NCBI GenBank assembly: GCA_902522825.1
Contig: CABYXE010000005.1
Coordinates: 1-44,132, forward strand
Direction: 5' to 3'
Origin: an uncultured SAR86 cluster bacterium
GTDB lineage: Bacteria > Pseudomonadota > Gammaproteobacteria > Magnimaribacterales > AG-339-G14
Length of the DNA: 44,132 nucleotides
The notes under the pieces are model-generated. The model was not told where the DNA came from. It did no database searches and saw only the letters and a list, made by a program, of their open reading frames with translations. The translations under genes and the position numbers were made by a program. This document shows positions 27,127 to 40,182 of the stretch, one piece after another; position 1 is the stretch's first letter, and the number at the start of each line of letters is the position of its first letter.

Positions 27127-27834
27127 ATGAATGCTGTTATAAGTAATTGGAAACCAACAGTAATTTTTTTCTGTTTATTTCTAATGGTATTATCACTTGG
27201 CATTTGGCAAATAGACAGAGGCTATAATAAAAAAGAATTAGAAAATACTTTTTTAGAACGACAGTCTCAACCCGTTGAAGAGATCAAATATAATGACATA
27301 TCGGCATCTGACCTCTATAAGAATGTTGTTCTAGAAGGAAAATTTTTAAATCAAATTTTCTTCTTAGACAACAAAATCTTCGATGGAAAGCCAGGAGTTA
27401 AAGTTTTTGTTCCTTTTGAATCAGGCGAAAACGGTTTAATTATGGTTTCAAGAGGATGGATAGAGTTTAATGACCGAAATAGGCTGCCTTCAATAGATAT
27501 AGAAAAAAATAGCTTAAAGTTGCAAGGAATCCTAAGACCCGAATCGCAAGATTTTGTTCTTACTAATGAAGTTATGAAAGAAATAAAAAATCCTATGTTA
27601 GTTCAAACAATAAATTTGAAAGAAATTTCCGATTACTTAGGGAAACCTTTATCCCCATATATTTTAGAATTATCAGAGCTTTCAAATTCTGCTTTCATCA
27701 AAACATGGCAACCAATAAATCTAAGTTCATACAGGCATTTTGGCTATGCCGTTCAATGGTTTGGTTTGGGGTTAGTTTTGATCGTGGGATATTTATTTTT
27801 TTTGAGAAAAGGAGATGCCAAAGAAAATGAATAA
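27127..27834 (+). CDS. SURF1 family cytochrome oxidase assembly protein
   Basis: 235 aa. An N-terminal helix (about 10-28, followed by GIWQIDRGYNKKELE) and a C-terminal helix (about 209-228, preceded by RHFGYAVQWFGLG) frame a periplasmic domain containing VMVSRGWI-like IMVSRGWIEF. This two-helix plan and the W-Q-x-x-R and Y-A-x-Q-W-x-x-x motifs define SURF1 (Shy1), which helps insert heme a into subunit I. Its 3' end overlaps the next gene. Confidence 0.92.
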   Translation: MNAVISNWKPTVIFFCLFLMVLSLGIWQIDRGYNKKELENTFLERQSQPVEEIKYNDISASDLYKNVVLEGKFLNQIFFLDNKIFDGKPGVKVFVPFESGENGLIMVSRGWIEFNDRNRLPSIDIEKNSLKLQGILRPESQDFVLTNEVMKEIKNPMLVQTINLKEISDYLGKPLSPYILELSELSNSAFIKTWQPINLSSYRHFGYAVQWFGLGLVLIVGYLFFLRKGDAKENE

Positions 27835-28405
27835 AGGATTTATCACAGCTTTACTGATCTTCTTAACCCCTATCGTAGTTATTACTGTTAGCACTATTTG
27901 GTATTACTCGGGCTATGGCCCAGAAGAAAGGGTGAACTATGGACTTTTACTTTCAGACCCAATAGATATTGGAGAGTTAGACTTAGAATTGGATTATCAA
28001 TACCTAGATGTAGATAGCATGGAAAGAAAATGGATGTTGGTGCATTTTATAAACGACACATGTTTAGAAAGTTGTGCTGATTTAATTTATGTCGCAAGAC
28101 AGGTAAATGTTTTACTTGCTAGACAACAAACTCGAGTTAAAAGATATATAGCAGCTCCAAAAGCACTTAAACCATCCTTAGAAATCTTTTTCTCAACCTA
28201 TCAAGATTTAAACTATATCGAGATTAAAGATGAATCGAGAATCATGAAGGCTTTTGAATTAAACAACATTGATCCTTTCGATCAGCCAAATATGTTTGTG
28301 ATCGATCCAATTGGCAACATTATTCTTCATTATTCTGGAGAAGTAGATGGCAAAAAACTTCTTACAGATCTAAAGAAGCTGCTAGGAGCGTCAAAAATTG
28401 GTTAG
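27815..28405 (+). CDS. SCO-like thioredoxin-fold protein of the cox operon
   Basis: 196 aa from the ATG at 27815, or 192 from the ATG at 27827. The Shine-Dalgarno GGAG directly abuts the first ATG, so the second may be used. One N-terminal helix is followed by a soluble domain with INDTCLESCADLIYVARQVN, where C83-x3-C87 (numbered from 27815) mimics the SCO copper-binding CxxxC, and NMFVIDPIGNIILHYSGEVDG, a thioredoxin-like C-terminal strand. No clear equivalent of the SCO copper-ligand His was found at DPIGN. Genes like this occur between surf1 and ctaA in other gammaproteobacteria. A role in oxidase assembly or thiol chemistry is inferred from context. Confidence 0.8.
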   Translation: MPKKMNKGFITALLIFLTPIVVITVSTIWYYSGYGPEERVNYGLLLSDPIDIGELDLELDYQYLDVDSMERKWMLVHFINDTCLESCADLIYVARQVNVLLARQQTRVKRYIAAPKALKPSLEIFFSTYQDLNYIEIKDESRIMKAFELNNIDPFDQPNMFVIDPIGNIILHYSGEVDGKKLLTDLKKLLGASKIG

Positions 28406-31023: not shown

Positions 31024-31434
31024 ATGACACCAGAAATGATTGGGCAAGCTTTTATGATGGGCAGACTTGTTGATGCAATGTCTTTTATAGGGACCATACT
31101 TGCAATTTGGCTGGCTTTAAGAACAGCTAATATGACAGGAGAAAATCCAAAAAGTAATTTATTGACTAAAATTCTATCAACAGGTTTTGGTCTGTGTGTA
31201 ATGGCAGGTAGTTATTTGCAATTTACATATGCAGCTAATACATGGATTAACGCGGCACGCAGGATGCAAGAATTAGGAGTAGATTCCTTTTCAAATCCTG
31301 AAAGAACGCAGGGATTTATTGATTATGTCGGTACCACAGAAACAGCTAATTCTCCTACAATGTTAGGCATAGTGTTTCTTGCGATTATAACAATAATGAT
31401 TTTGGGCCTTATTTGGGGACCCAGAGATAGTTAA
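31024..31434 (+). CDS. Uncharacterised three-helix membrane protein, copy 1 (type I)
   Basis: 136 aa that I cannot assign to a named family. Predicted helices are at about 13-34, 46-70 and 111-131. Features shared with the next three genes: a polar/basic turn after helix 1 (ALRTANM), a Lys before helix 2 (LLTKILSTGFG), a soluble segment with TQGFIDYVGT, an SP motif before helix 3 (SPTMLGIVF) and a C-terminal LIWGP. No signal peptide, cysteine pair or enzyme motif is evident. A strong AGGAG precedes the ATG. It is first in a four-gene paralog array just after the cytochrome oxidase operon, and groups with copy 3 by its R-x-A-N after helix 1 and a tail without PEPKE. Confidence 0.85.
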   Translation: MTPEMIGQAFMMGRLVDAMSFIGTILAIWLALRTANMTGENPKSNLLTKILSTGFGLCVMAGSYLQFTYAANTWINAARRMQELGVDSFSNPERTQGFIDYVGTTETANSPTMLGIVFLAIITIMILGLIWGPRDS

Positions 31435-31448
31435 ACTAGGAGATAAAT

Positions 31449-31868
31449 ATGGAACAAATAGCTTTACTTAACGAATCTTACACCGCGCTTTTAGGAGTAA
31501 GTGGGATATTTTTCATAGGAAATATACTTCTTCTCTGGATGATGTTCAGAGGAGTCACAAACGCAAATTTATACGGAGTTAATACTTTTGGAAAAGTAAT
31601 GCACTCTATAATTTCACTTTGTGTTGTAGCATTTAACATGGGGACTTATGGAAATGTTGCCATGACTATGAACAACTGGGCTTTTGCAGTTTCAGAAACT
31701 GGTGAAGAGCTCACTGGAGGGTTACAACAATTTGTTGACTCAATGGGTGCAACTGAATATGTATCTGCATCTTTAATTCCAACTGATCCGTTAGGAATAG
31801 TCTTTTACTTGGCTATTTTAGTGGGCCTAATCGGTGGGATGTGGGCAGCTCCAGAACCTAAGGAGTAA
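31449..31868 (+). CDS. Uncharacterised three-helix membrane protein, copy 2 (type II)
   Basis: 139 aa, paralogous to its neighbours. Helices are at about 13-34, 47-70 and 113-134. It aligns nearly without gaps: LLLWMMFRGV after helix 1, FGKVMHSIISLCVVAFNMGTYG (helix 2 with the FN motif), LQQFVDSMG, SLIPTDPLGIVFYL before helix 3 and the tail MWAAPEPKE. The SLIPxDPL and APEPKE features are shared only with copy 4, defining type II. It follows copy 1 by 14 bp with its own AGGAG. A strong terminator follows immediately. Confidence 0.85.
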   Translation: MEQIALLNESYTALLGVSGIFFIGNILLLWMMFRGVTNANLYGVNTFGKVMHSIISLCVVAFNMGTYGNVAMTMNNWAFAVSETGEELTGGLQQFVDSMGATEYVSASLIPTDPLGIVFYLAILVGLIGGMWAAPEPKE

Positions 31869-31871
31869 ATA

Positions 31872-31906
31872 AAAAAAAGGGAAGATTAGATATCTTCCCT
31901 TTTTTT
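31872..31906 (+). terminator. Strong intrinsic terminator between copies 2 and 3
   Basis: A perfect 15-bp stem has arms 31872-31886 and 31892-31906, core GGGAAGAT / ATCTTCCC, loop TAGAT, and ends in seven T. It stops only 26 bp before the start codon of copy 3, so copies 3 and 4 must be expressed by read-through, by a promoter inside copy 2, or from a processed transcript. Confidence 0.88.
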
Positions 31907-31932
31907 ATAAAATTTAAAAAAAAGGAGAAAAA

Positions 31933-32337
31933 ATGAACGAATATCAATTATGGACCACTATGAATCTTGGTTTGATGGCAAATGCTGTTTACCAGGCAGG
32001 TGTGTTTTTCTTATTATGGGTGGCTTTTAGAGCTGCAAATCAAATGAGGGCAGAAGATGCTAGTGTTTTAAATAAATCTCTAGTTTCTCTTTTCAGCCTA
32101 GGAATAATCTTTAATGGTTTAACTGTTGGAGCAATACTTTTTAGCCTGCTTGAAGGAACAGCTTATGGATTTGAACAAGTAGAATCTTTAAGTGCTGGTG
32201 CACAAAATTTTGTGGATGTATATGGAACGGGCGAGCCAAATGGAGCGCAAAACATATTTACTGCAAATCCAATTAATACAGGATGGTGGGCAGTAGTTAC
32301 TATTATGTTGTTCGGAAGAATCTGGACTAAAAATTAG
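31933..32337 (+). CDS. Uncharacterised three-helix membrane protein, copy 3 (type I)
   Basis: 134 aa. Helices are at about 14-34, 46-70 and 113-130. Conserved family positions: LLWVAFRAANQM after helix 1 (compare ALRTANM of copy 1), LNKSLVSLFSLGIIFNGLTVG, AQNFVDVYGTG, NPINTGWW before helix 3 and RIWTKN at the end. The AAAGGAG ribosome binding site is strong, but there is no room for a promoter after the preceding terminator. It lies 8 bp before copy 4, so the pair is co-translated. Confidence 0.85.
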   Translation: MNEYQLWTTMNLGLMANAVYQAGVFFLLWVAFRAANQMRAEDASVLNKSLVSLFSLGIIFNGLTVGAILFSLLEGTAYGFEQVESLSAGAQNFVDVYGTGEPNGAQNIFTANPINTGWWAVVTIMLFGRIWTKN

Positions 32338-32345
32338 GAGGAAAT

Positions 32346-32759
32346 ATGACAGAATTTCAAATTATTTCACAATTTAATTCTTTTTTAATAAGTAATGCAC
32401 TTTATTTAATGGTTTTTACTTTCTTGCTCTTCATGGCTTACGGTGGAGTTTATAGAATGAATAAAGACGGAGCTACAATTCTAGGTAAAGTTTTAGGAAC
32501 TTTATTTTCAACAATTGTGGTTTATTTTAATTGTTTAACGCTAGGGTTTCTATACGCCCAACAGCAAGGAGCGGCATATAGTTTATCTCAGTTAGACAAC
32601 TTATCGGAAAGCGCTCAGTCGTTTGTAGACTTTTTTGATGGTGGATCCTTAGATGCATTTTCACTAATACCTGCAGATCCGTTAGCTGTTTTGTTTTTTA
32701 TAGTAGTTTTAATAAGTTTGATTCTACCTATATGGACAGCCCCGGAACCGAAAGAATAA
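32346..32759 (+). CDS. Uncharacterised three-helix membrane protein, copy 4 (type II)
   Basis: 137 aa. Helices are at about 14-36, 46-70 and 112-132. It has MAYGGVYRMN after helix 1, LGKVLGTLFSTIVVYFNCLTLG in helix 2, AQSFVDFFDGG, SLIPADPLAVLFF before helix 3 and the tail IWTAPEPKE, closely matching copy 2. AGGAGG lies just upstream of the ATG. A second strong terminator follows, so each type I/type II pair ends in its own terminator. The function is unknown. Confidence 0.85.
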   Translation: MTEFQIISQFNSFLISNALYLMVFTFLLFMAYGGVYRMNKDGATILGKVLGTLFSTIVVYFNCLTLGFLYAQQQGAAYSLSQLDNLSESAQSFVDFFDGGSLDAFSLIPADPLAVLFFIVVLISLILPIWTAPEPKE

Positions 32760-32769
32760 AAAACTCATA

Positions 32770-32799
32770 AAAAAGGGGGGGTTCTTGCCCTCCCTTTTT
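32770..32799. terminator. Bidirectional terminator after copy 4
   Basis: A 12-bp stem, arms 32770-32781 and 32788-32799 with one G-T pair and loop TTCTTG, is flanked by A-runs and T-runs on both sides. It can end both the plus-strand membrane protein array and the minus-strand oxidoreductase gene, whose stop codon it touches. Confidence 0.85.
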
Positions 32800-33772
32800 A
32801 CATCTCTATTACAACTTTTCCAGTAGCTTTTCTATTTTCTAAGGACGATATCGCTTCTGCGGCATCACCTAAAGAATAGCTTTTAGTAATTTGTGGTTTG
32901 AGCTTGCCTTCAGCATGAAGAGCAAACAATTCGTCAAAGTTTTGTGAATTTTCTTCTGGCTCGGCTCCTGTAAATCTTCCCCAAAAAACTCCAACTATTG
33001 AACATCCTTTTAGTAAAGCTAAGTTGGTTGGAACTTCAGGTATAGGCCCACTAGCAAAACCAATAACTAGTACTCTTCCTTTCCAGTTAATACATCTCAT
33101 GCACTGCATGAAAATATCTCCACCAATTGGATCATAAATAACATCCGCACCTAAACCATCAGTTAATACCTTCACTTTTTCTTTTAATTCGCCATCGCTG
33201 TAATTAATAACTTCATCAGCACCAAGATTCTTTGCGATTTCTAATTTTTCGTCGGTACTAGCTGCAGCAATAACTCTTGCTCCCATTGCTTTACCAATTT
33301 CTATTGCTGTAGTGCCAACACCGCCTCCAGCACCTGTAACTAGAAGGGTTTCACCGGCCTGTAGTTGACCTCTTTGTTTGAGAGCATGATAAGTGGTACC
33401 GTAATTAAGAGGAAATGCAGCCCCATCTTTAAAGTCCATAGTTTCTGGCAGAGGCATTAAGGTCATTTCAAAGGCAACTACCTTTTCAGCAATACCGCCA
33501 TTACCTGTCATGGCAATTACGCGATCACCAACTTTCCAATCGACTACACCTTCGCCAACTTCACTTATGATTCCGGCAATCTCTCCACCTGGAGAAAAAG
33601 GAAAAGGAGGTTGAAATTGATATTTACCTTGAACAATTAAAACATCAGGGAAACTAACTCCTGCTGCCTTAACATCTACAACTACTTGACCTGCTTCAGC
33701 TCTGGGATCCGCAATCTCCTCAACTTTATGAGATTCAACTGGACCAAATTCTCTACAAACATATGCTTTCAT
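32798..33772 (-). CDS. Zinc-free MDR oxidoreductase, NADPH:quinone oxidoreductase-like
   Basis: 324 aa. The medium-chain dehydrogenase/reductase fold is clear: an N-terminal GroES-like domain (GVSFPDVLIVQGKYQFQPPF, PGGEIAGIISEVGEGV) and a Rossmann domain with GAGGGVGTTAIEIGKAMGA at about 147-165. The zinc-ligand cysteines of alcohol dehydrogenases are absent, so it belongs to the quinone oxidoreductase/enoyl reductase group. The substrate cannot be told from sequence. A strong GGAG precedes the ATG. It follows gshA by 10 bp and may be co-transcribed with it. Confidence 0.85.
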   Translation of the reverse strand: MKAYVCREFGPVESHKVEEIADPRAEAGQVVVDVKAAGVSFPDVLIVQGKYQFQPPFPFSPGGEIAGIISEVGEGVVDWKVGDRVIAMTGNGGIAEKVVAFEMTLMPLPETMDFKDGAAFPLNYGTTYHALKQRGQLQAGETLLVTGAGGGVGTTAIEIGKAMGARVIAAASTDEKLEIAKNLGADEVINYSDGELKEKVKVLTDGLGADVIYDPIGGDIFMQCMRCINWKGRVLVIGFASGPIPEVPTNLALLKGCSIVGVFWGRFTGAEPEENSQNFDELFALHAEGKLKPQITKSYSLGDAAEAISSLENRKATGKVVIEM

Positions 33773-39300: not shown

Positions 39301-39372
39301 ATATTTAATTTGAACAAATCCTAAAAATCTAATAATCTAAATCTCCTTATAAATTTTTCAATGGAGAGAAAA

Positions 39373-40182
39373 ATGAAAAAAAATATAAAAATGGCAATTC
39401 TAGTTGCCTTCTTAGGAGTTTTTGTTGCGTGCAGCAGTGAATCAACTCCAACATATTCTGAATTAGGTTCAGATAATTACCCCCAAAAGTTTTATGTTGA
39501 ATACGTGCCTTGCACTTATGGAGCAAACTGGTCACCAGAAGCTTTTAATCAAGACATGCTGCCTGGATGGCAAGAATTACTCGTCGAAGTAGATTCTACG
39601 ATAGTTGCTGCATACGGGCTTACCTATGAAGGTGAAAAACCCGAAGATGCGCCAGGCGATGGATTTTGGCAGTTAATTTGGAATTCCAAGGCTGACGCCG
39701 ACGCCGGCTGGGAAACTTGGGAAAGCTATGAAAAAACTGCAGATTGGAATGAATCCACTGCGGATATCTTGGCTTGTGGCACGAAAGCCGAAACTTTTTC
39801 TTTCGATGCTTATGTTCGAAGAGACGGTAATGCCTTAGGTGCTTTTAATTTGGAGTCTTTTTCTTCAGATTACCAGCAATGTCTTTATAACGAAGGGCAA
39901 GGCTCAAGCGAATTGATTGCAGTGATAGATCAATTTGAAGAATGGATAGAATCTAGCGATTCTTCTATATATGCACCTTACTCTTATGTGGTTTTAGCAC
40001 CAGATTATGAAGATGAAGAAGTAGATCTGTTTTGGGGTAATTTCAACCAAAATGCAGAATTAAGAGAAGCAGGAAATGCTTATTTCTTAAAAACAGGAAC
40101 TGATATTCAAGATGCTTTTGATAAAGTTATGACTTGTGAAGTTCCAATTGATTACGTTACTGGCGAAATACCTTTAACTTAA
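39373..40182 (+). CDS. Putative lipoprotein with two related halves, function unknown
   Basis: 269 aa from the ATG at 39373, chosen over the ATG at 39361 because GGAGAG (39363-39368) sits at the right distance. The signal peptide ends in the lipobox GVFVAC with Cys20, followed by SSES, so it is likely lipid-anchored; no Asp at +2 argues for outer-membrane sorting. The mature part is acidic and looks like a tandem duplication: residues about 40-136 and 143-256 both end in a Trp-rich D-x-F-W / F-W strand, an N-x-x-A-x-A-G segment and a Cys (C135, C255), and each has another Cys (C47, C170). I know no named family for it. It is a single-gene unit ending in a strong terminator. Confidence 0.8.
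   Translation: MKKNIKMAILVAFLGVFVACSSESTPTYSELGSDNYPQKFYVEYVPCTYGANWSPEAFNQDMLPGWQELLVEVDSTIVAAYGLTYEGEKPEDAPGDGFWQLIWNSKADADAGWETWESYEKTADWNESTADILACGTKAETFSFDAYVRRDGNALGAFNLESFSSDYQQCLYNEGQGSSELIAVIDQFEEWIESSDSSIYAPYSYVVLAPDYEDEEVDLFWGNFNQNAELREAGNAYFLKTGTDIQDAFDKVMTCEVPIDYVTGEIPLT

Follow-up and report, generated by a model that had tools for sequence, protein, structure and literature searches.

A small membrane protein family of SAR86 bacteria whose copies are exchanged in the interval between sco1 and qor

Why do four consecutive, related genes for small membrane proteins stand directly behind a complete cytochrome oxidase operon, and what do they do there? The question is raised by a stretch of 44,132 nucleotides (contig CABYXE010000005.1; here the window) from a SAR86 bacterium that belongs to GTDB family AG-339-G14, labeled f1 in the following. 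The named loci with which it was compared come from SAR86 single-cell and metagenome assemblies, strain AG-339-G14 among them, all of them drafts, and the genus labels g1, g3, and g4 serve as handles. In the published naming of the SAR86 families, AG-339-G14 equals RedeBAC7D11, D2472 comprises subgroups I to IV, TMED112 equals CHAB-I-7, and the family SAR86 is the one containing Magnimaribacter (PMC11582366). Our families f2, f3, and f4 presumably correspond to SAR86, D2472, and TMED112, respectively.

The genes upstream of the array are arranged in the order coxB-coxA-cox11-coxC-surf1-ctaA-ctaB-sco1, and Pfam matches to COX2, COX1, Cox11, COX3, SURF1, CtaA, a UbiA-type CtaB, and SCO1 confirmed the full oxidase operon that had been read from the sequence alone, as an aa3-type oxidase and assembly gene set. 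Beyond this set, qor, and a few others, the window genes lack a Pfam-based name and were named by eye; for instance, a 196-amino-acid (aa) gene in the surf1-ctaA interval (27815-28405, plus strand) looks thioredoxin/SCO-like by eye, with no Pfam match at 1e-5. In the AG-339-G14 genomes that span the array, its left border is always sco1 (SCO1/SenC, PF02630; 30276-30923, plus strand), and its right border is always qor, encoding a PIG3-like zinc-binding dehydrogenase/quinone oxidoreductase (32798-33772, minus strand). Between them lie four open reading frames on the plus strand, each with an ATG start and an AGGAG-like Shine-Dalgarno sequence upstream: copy 1 (31024-31434, 136 aa, three hydrophobic helices), copy 2 (31449-31868, 139 aa), copy 3 (31933-32337, 134 aa), and, after a gap of only 8 nucleotides (nt), copy 4 (32346-32759, 137 aa), assigned by phylogeny to types T1, T2, T3, and T4, respectively, with copy 1 in a deep T1 clade. 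A near-perfect, terminator-like hairpin flanked by A/T runs (31872-31906) occupies the 64-nt gap between copies 2 and 3, and a second terminator-like hairpin on the plus strand (32775-32793) closes the array, in the space where copy 4 and qor converge.

All six pairs of copies were homologous beyond chance, with z values of 3.5 to 25 for local alignments against locally shuffled controls and BLASTP E-values among the copies of 6e-3 (1 versus 4), 6e-23 (3 versus 4), and 2e-23 (2 versus 4). The tandem paralogy proposed in the sequence-only reading is thereby borne out, and the motifs that it listed are all present (an invariant K49, Q-x-F-[VI]-D, and a final Trp; R-x-A-N in copies 1 and 3; SLIPxDPL and APEPKE in copies 2 and 4; FN in copies 2 to 4), as are hairpins with T-runs after copies 2 and 4. 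That reading had further paired copy 1 with copy 3 and copy 2 with copy 4 and had taken the four genes for a duplicated two-gene unit. In a 121-row tree, which was based on ∼140 columns and from which alone the type names coined here were taken, copies 2 and 4 formed one clade (support 100/96), as proposed, while copy 1 was placed in a separate clade with genes from SAR86 family f3 (99/89) and copy 3 attached to the side of copies 2 and 4 (97/90). Constraining types 1 and 3 together cost 11.5 log units (p-AU 0.052), so that the pairing of copies 1 and 3 appears disfavored; moreover, copy 3 scored about as high against copy 4 as copy 2 did (74 versus 76 bits). With copy 1 on a separate, ancient branch and copies 2 and 3 equally close to copy 4, the four genes probably did not arise as a duplicated pair.

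To what family, then, do the four proteins belong? A 35-row profile detected the family in 145 of 203 SAR86 genomes and in 35 of the 40 high-quality ones. Among 369 Gammaproteobacteria genomes drawn across the class, four matched, all of them SAR86, and in a draw of 399 genomes across the phylum Pseudomonadota, which partly overlaps the former, the sole match was the window's own genome; none of the 763 draws of non-SAR86 Gammaproteobacteria or Pseudomonadota carried a family member. The family is thus restricted to SAR86 in the samples searched. Searches of Pfam, NCBIfam, PHROGs, PADLOC, and PDB sequences gave no match beyond weak noise, in keeping with the initial impression of no known family: no profile of a characterized family matched confidently, the PADLOC anti-phage defense models gave no match up to an E-value of 0.1, and no bacteriocin or colicin immunity profile of Pfam or NCBIfam matched. 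No homologue was found among the viral contigs, phage records, or plasmid records searched, and a phage or plasmid origin was rejected on this ground. An Rfam match to GibS was attributed to chance (32.7 bits, against a cutoff of 115 bits). Published SAR86 genomics and other literature, covering few subscription journals, contained no description of the family, which was previously unnamed.

The AlphaFold2 model of copy 2, built from a 35-row alignment, confidently predicts a three-helix membrane protein (pLDDT 93.8, pTM 0.82), with helices at residues 3 to 42, 46 to 82, and 114 to 132 and a short one at 90 to 99. With this confident model, Foldseek found no credible relative in the PDB or among viral models (best E-value, 0.3) and no similarity to solved folds such as three-helix SemiSWEET-type transporters. 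Only K49 and W132 were invariant among 35 diverse members, and W30 and R34 were nearly so; no His, Cys, or acidic residue was conserved in the membrane, so the sequences give no hint of a cofactor or an ion site. The loop between helices 1 and 2 carries basic residues and the second loop is acidic. By the positive-inside rule, the N terminus is likely outside, loop 1-2 inside, the acidic loop 2-3 outside, and the C terminus inside, which would make this an inner-membrane protein. Conserved sites occur on both membrane faces and entropy is nearly even by region (1.8 to 2.25 bits), so a variable periplasmic face is weakly supported. The CvpA/Colicin V production protein (PF02674) is alike in being a small multihelix inner-membrane protein and weakly matched 5 of the 35 members in Pfam (best E-value, 1e-3; below the curated cutoff). 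Homology to it was rejected, as profile-profile comparison with hhalign gave a probability of 6.3% over 31 columns, and the genome has a separate, genuine CvpA elsewhere.

The composition of the array varies among relatives. All 39 f1 genomes that span the sco1-qor gap carry one to four family copies there (one copy in 3 genomes, two in 16, three in 16, and four in 4), and the gap is never empty. The copies sort into about nine old clades (T1 to T7, T2b, and T2c) that are combined in changing strings, e.g., T1-T2-T3-T4 in the window and T3-T4, T6-T4, T1-T4-T2b, T2-T5-T7, and T1-T2-T6-T4 elsewhere. Several types are common to genera g1, g3, and g4, each of which is monophyletic in the flanking-gene tree, where all four genera are intact. 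T1 took the first position in all 22 arrays that carry it and was followed, at 20 of 21 junctions, by the next copy (mostly T2) after 8 to 25 nt without a hairpin, whereas hairpins follow most non-T1 copies; most junctions after T2 and T5 have a GC-rich hairpin with a T-tail, after which there are often only tens of bases to the next start codon. These hairpins may act as transcription terminators or as stabilizers of the mRNA. A coupled front pair of T1 and the following copy therefore does hold, and to that extent the coupling of two subunit types assumed in the sequence-only reading survives, while the repeated two-gene unit is not supported. The obligate hetero-oligomer deduced from it is unlikely, because type 1 is missing from 17 of the 39 arrays. 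Integron cassette arrays are alike in their tandem genes, many with a hairpin, their cassette-like exchange, the little room for internal promoters, and the conserved front order. They differ in that the hairpins found here, each a GC stem followed by a T-tail, resemble intrinsic terminators rather than attC sites, and in that all genes here belong to one family; no integrase was noticed near the locus when the window's open reading frames were inspected by eye.

Comparison of close relatives showed that the sco1-qor gap is a site at which family copies are swapped. Between genomes G001 and G005, the flanks sco1-ctaA and qor-pckA were 92 to 100% identical in DNA, while the array was 46 to 65% identical, and the borders of identity were sharp, one lying where sco1 ends and the other close to where the 3′ end of qor begins. 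Across genera, copy 4 of G063 (g3) was 94 to 96% identical in amino acids to g1 copies (96% to copy 3 of G002, against 53 to 73% for most flanks), its copy 3 was 91% identical to copy 1 of G005, and copy 3 of G007 was 89% identical to copy 3 of G027, whereas ctaA, ctaB, sco1, gshA, and pckA in these cross-genus pairs were 52 to 75% identical. The exchanged segment can take in the right border: in G007 (g1), copy 3 and qor together form a g3-like block with 82.5% DNA identity, against ∼69% on either side. The qor of G063 was 87% identical to that of the g1 genomes to which its copies 3 and 4 are close, and the other flanking genes of G063 were 52 to 74% identical to theirs. Overall, 15 of 99 family genes had their nearest relative in a different genus, versus 1 of 262 flank genes, and this sole exception was the G007 qor inside the transferred block. 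Many of the genomes are single-cell assemblies (AG-/AH- names) and the borrowed copies lie on contigs with both native flanks, and thus binning error is not the explanation. In G032, gshA is joined in frame to a type-5-like family gene (466 aa; L130:5950-7350); this is probably an assembly chimera, because gshA normally runs in the opposite direction.

Similar replacements were found outside f1. At one f3 site (L062 versus L071), the annotated neighbors were mostly 83 to 92% identical and the family genes 31%, one being T1-like and the other of a second deep type. In f2 (L057 versus L061), neighbors were mostly 89 to 100% identical, the family gene 37%, and the adjacent secreted protein 51%, and an extra copy was present. 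Swapping therefore occurs in three SAR86 families and at different chromosomal sites. Beyond the f2 secreted protein, on the edge of the swapped segment, a gene for a PhoD-like phosphatase (L057:5281-6279, L061:5010) was 70% identical. The locus shares with the replacement-type flexible islands of marine bacteria a fixed site, conserved flanks, and alternative contents in close relatives, and recombinational exchange between lineages was observed as well (copy 3 plus qor of G007; the g1-like copies 3 and 4 of G063); a link to phages and predators, proposed for such islands, is a further point of likeness. One such island, a glycosyltransferase hypervariable region with outer-membrane modification genes, has been described from a single-cell genome of SAR86 (PMC3569297). 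Compared with that island, the array described here is small (0.5 to 2 kb), consists of one three-helix family, is never empty, and has types that cross genera.

Each type is under strong purifying selection: within types (pairs of 84 to 99.5% identity), dN/dS was 0.07 overall. It ranged by region from 0.05 to 0.12, with the highest values in the N terminus (0.12) and the periplasmic loop (0.09), and positive selection on the periplasmic loops was not seen. The diversity is old and maintained rather than the product of fast mutation. Codon usage offered no proxy for abundance in this genome, since even its ribosomal genes lack a usable bias. In puf/puc light-harvesting genes, small membrane polypeptides are likewise encoded in pairs, with multiple isoforms and intergenic hairpins, but the present family has no conserved His ligand and no sequence or fold match, and rhodopsin presence is only loosely linked to it. 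A strict link to proteorhodopsin was rejected, since both are common in SAR86 and exceptions run both ways: no rhodopsin was detected in G016 and G018, and G037 has a rhodopsin without a family member.

One gene outside the array is a candidate partner. The lipoprotein-like secreted protein encoded at 39361-40182 (plus strand; 273 aa) is hypervariable, with 51 to 66% identity within g1, compared with mostly 84 to 89% for its neighbors, and its homologues or other secreted proteins of ∼240 aa are encoded immediately next to the family gene in f2 and at several f3 loci. This adjacency is suggestive only, because the superfamily, which had no match in Pfam or NCBIfam, has several copies per SAR86 genome. 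Its structure model (pLDDT 55.6) was too poor for a fold search. A gene for a DUF4345 membrane protein (PF14248; 37978-38358, minus strand) lies near this variable gene.

The four genes of the window represent one configuration of an exchangeable array, and we tentatively propose, with confidence a little short of even, that its products share a fixed core role and offer alternative periplasmic specificities. Single copies or short runs are replaced between strains and genera, the borders falling at sco1 and qor or slightly past them. Homologous recombination, with the conserved flanks as anchors, is the likely route, given that the mosaic borders fit and neither an integrase nor a mobile element was noticed. 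The proteins would likely sit in the inner membrane with the N terminus out and the C terminus in. It is about an even call that they perform one core job, with W30, R34, K49, and W132 at the cytoplasmic face, and present several specificities to the periplasm. As a lead, rare types might be favored when something outside the cell recognizes the common ones; ejection of phage DNA across the inner membrane or a toxin that targets membranes would rank ahead of substrate or lipid specificity as the agent. The low dN/dS counts against this proposal insofar as it speaks against a fast point-mutation arms race, as does the never-empty array, whose constant occupancy sets it apart from optional genes for defense or immunity and would also be compatible with a housekeeping function that has niche variants. 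The negative searches of phage, plasmid, and viral-contig records and of PADLOC weigh against it as well. That the family forms an order-wide inner-membrane specificity system, possibly with the hypervariable secreted partner, in which types are exchanged among species because they control the access of phages or membrane toxins to the cytoplasm, we regard as unlikely.

Other readings were weighed against the exchangeable array. The proteins could instead be small oligomeric channels, transporters, or lipid or quinone binders with a core role, their types tuned to substrates or conditions and exchanged in the course of niche adaptation. At least one copy is always present in f1, conservation is order-wide (145 of 203 genomes), purifying selection is strong, and no toxin or phage genes were noticed nearby, so this is a possible explanation to which we give somewhat less credence; it meets difficulty in the lack of a conserved membrane acid, His, or Cys and of a solved-transporter fold match, and in near-identical flanks that carry different types, a turnover exceeding the apparent need of niche tuning. 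Small three-helix proteins in tandem diverged copies with turnover and cross-genus sharing would also suit a cassette of orphan membrane immunity proteins against pore-forming bacteriocins whose toxin genes are absent. This seems improbable: there was no immunity or bacteriocin match in Pfam or NCBIfam and no toxin-like neighbor was noticed, the arrays are never empty, the family occurs throughout SAR86, and free-living plankton rarely meets pore-forming bacteriocins.

Even less credible is an ordinary lineage-specific family shaped by local duplication and loss, with old paralogues sorted per genome and no transfer. The types common to g1, g3, and g4 may predate the genera, and some of the pattern may be due to sorting. 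However, the identities of 89 to 96% across genera against 52 to 75% for the flanks, together with the cotransferred G007 qor, mean that sorting alone is insufficient, and two blocks at least, those of G063 and G007, contradict it. A respiratory-chain accessory, among the roles left open by the sequence-only reading, or an assembly factor for the adjacent oxidase is suggested by the position of the array directly behind coxB to sco1 in the window, but we consider it highly improbable. The cox linkage is confined to AG-339-G14, the family gene in f2 to f4 lying at unrelated sites that lack cox genes in the vicinity; in genus g4, the array is separated from sco1 by intervening genes; copies are exchanged while oxidase genes are not; and no copy matched a cox-family profile in Pfam or NCBIfam. 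The g4 insert includes a 439-aa gene (L043:9887-11206, with equivalents in L046, L048, and L053) that looks beta-propeller-like by eye and has no Pfam match.

A family found in these searches only in SAR86, present in most of its well-assembled genomes and yet swapped between species at fixed sites, is a sign of strong selection pressure on this abundant ocean bacterium and suggests an outside agent or substrate that selects for variety. The sco1-qor interval is a compact locus in which to study the forces behind the diversity of uncultured plankton, be they phage entry, toxins, or substrates.
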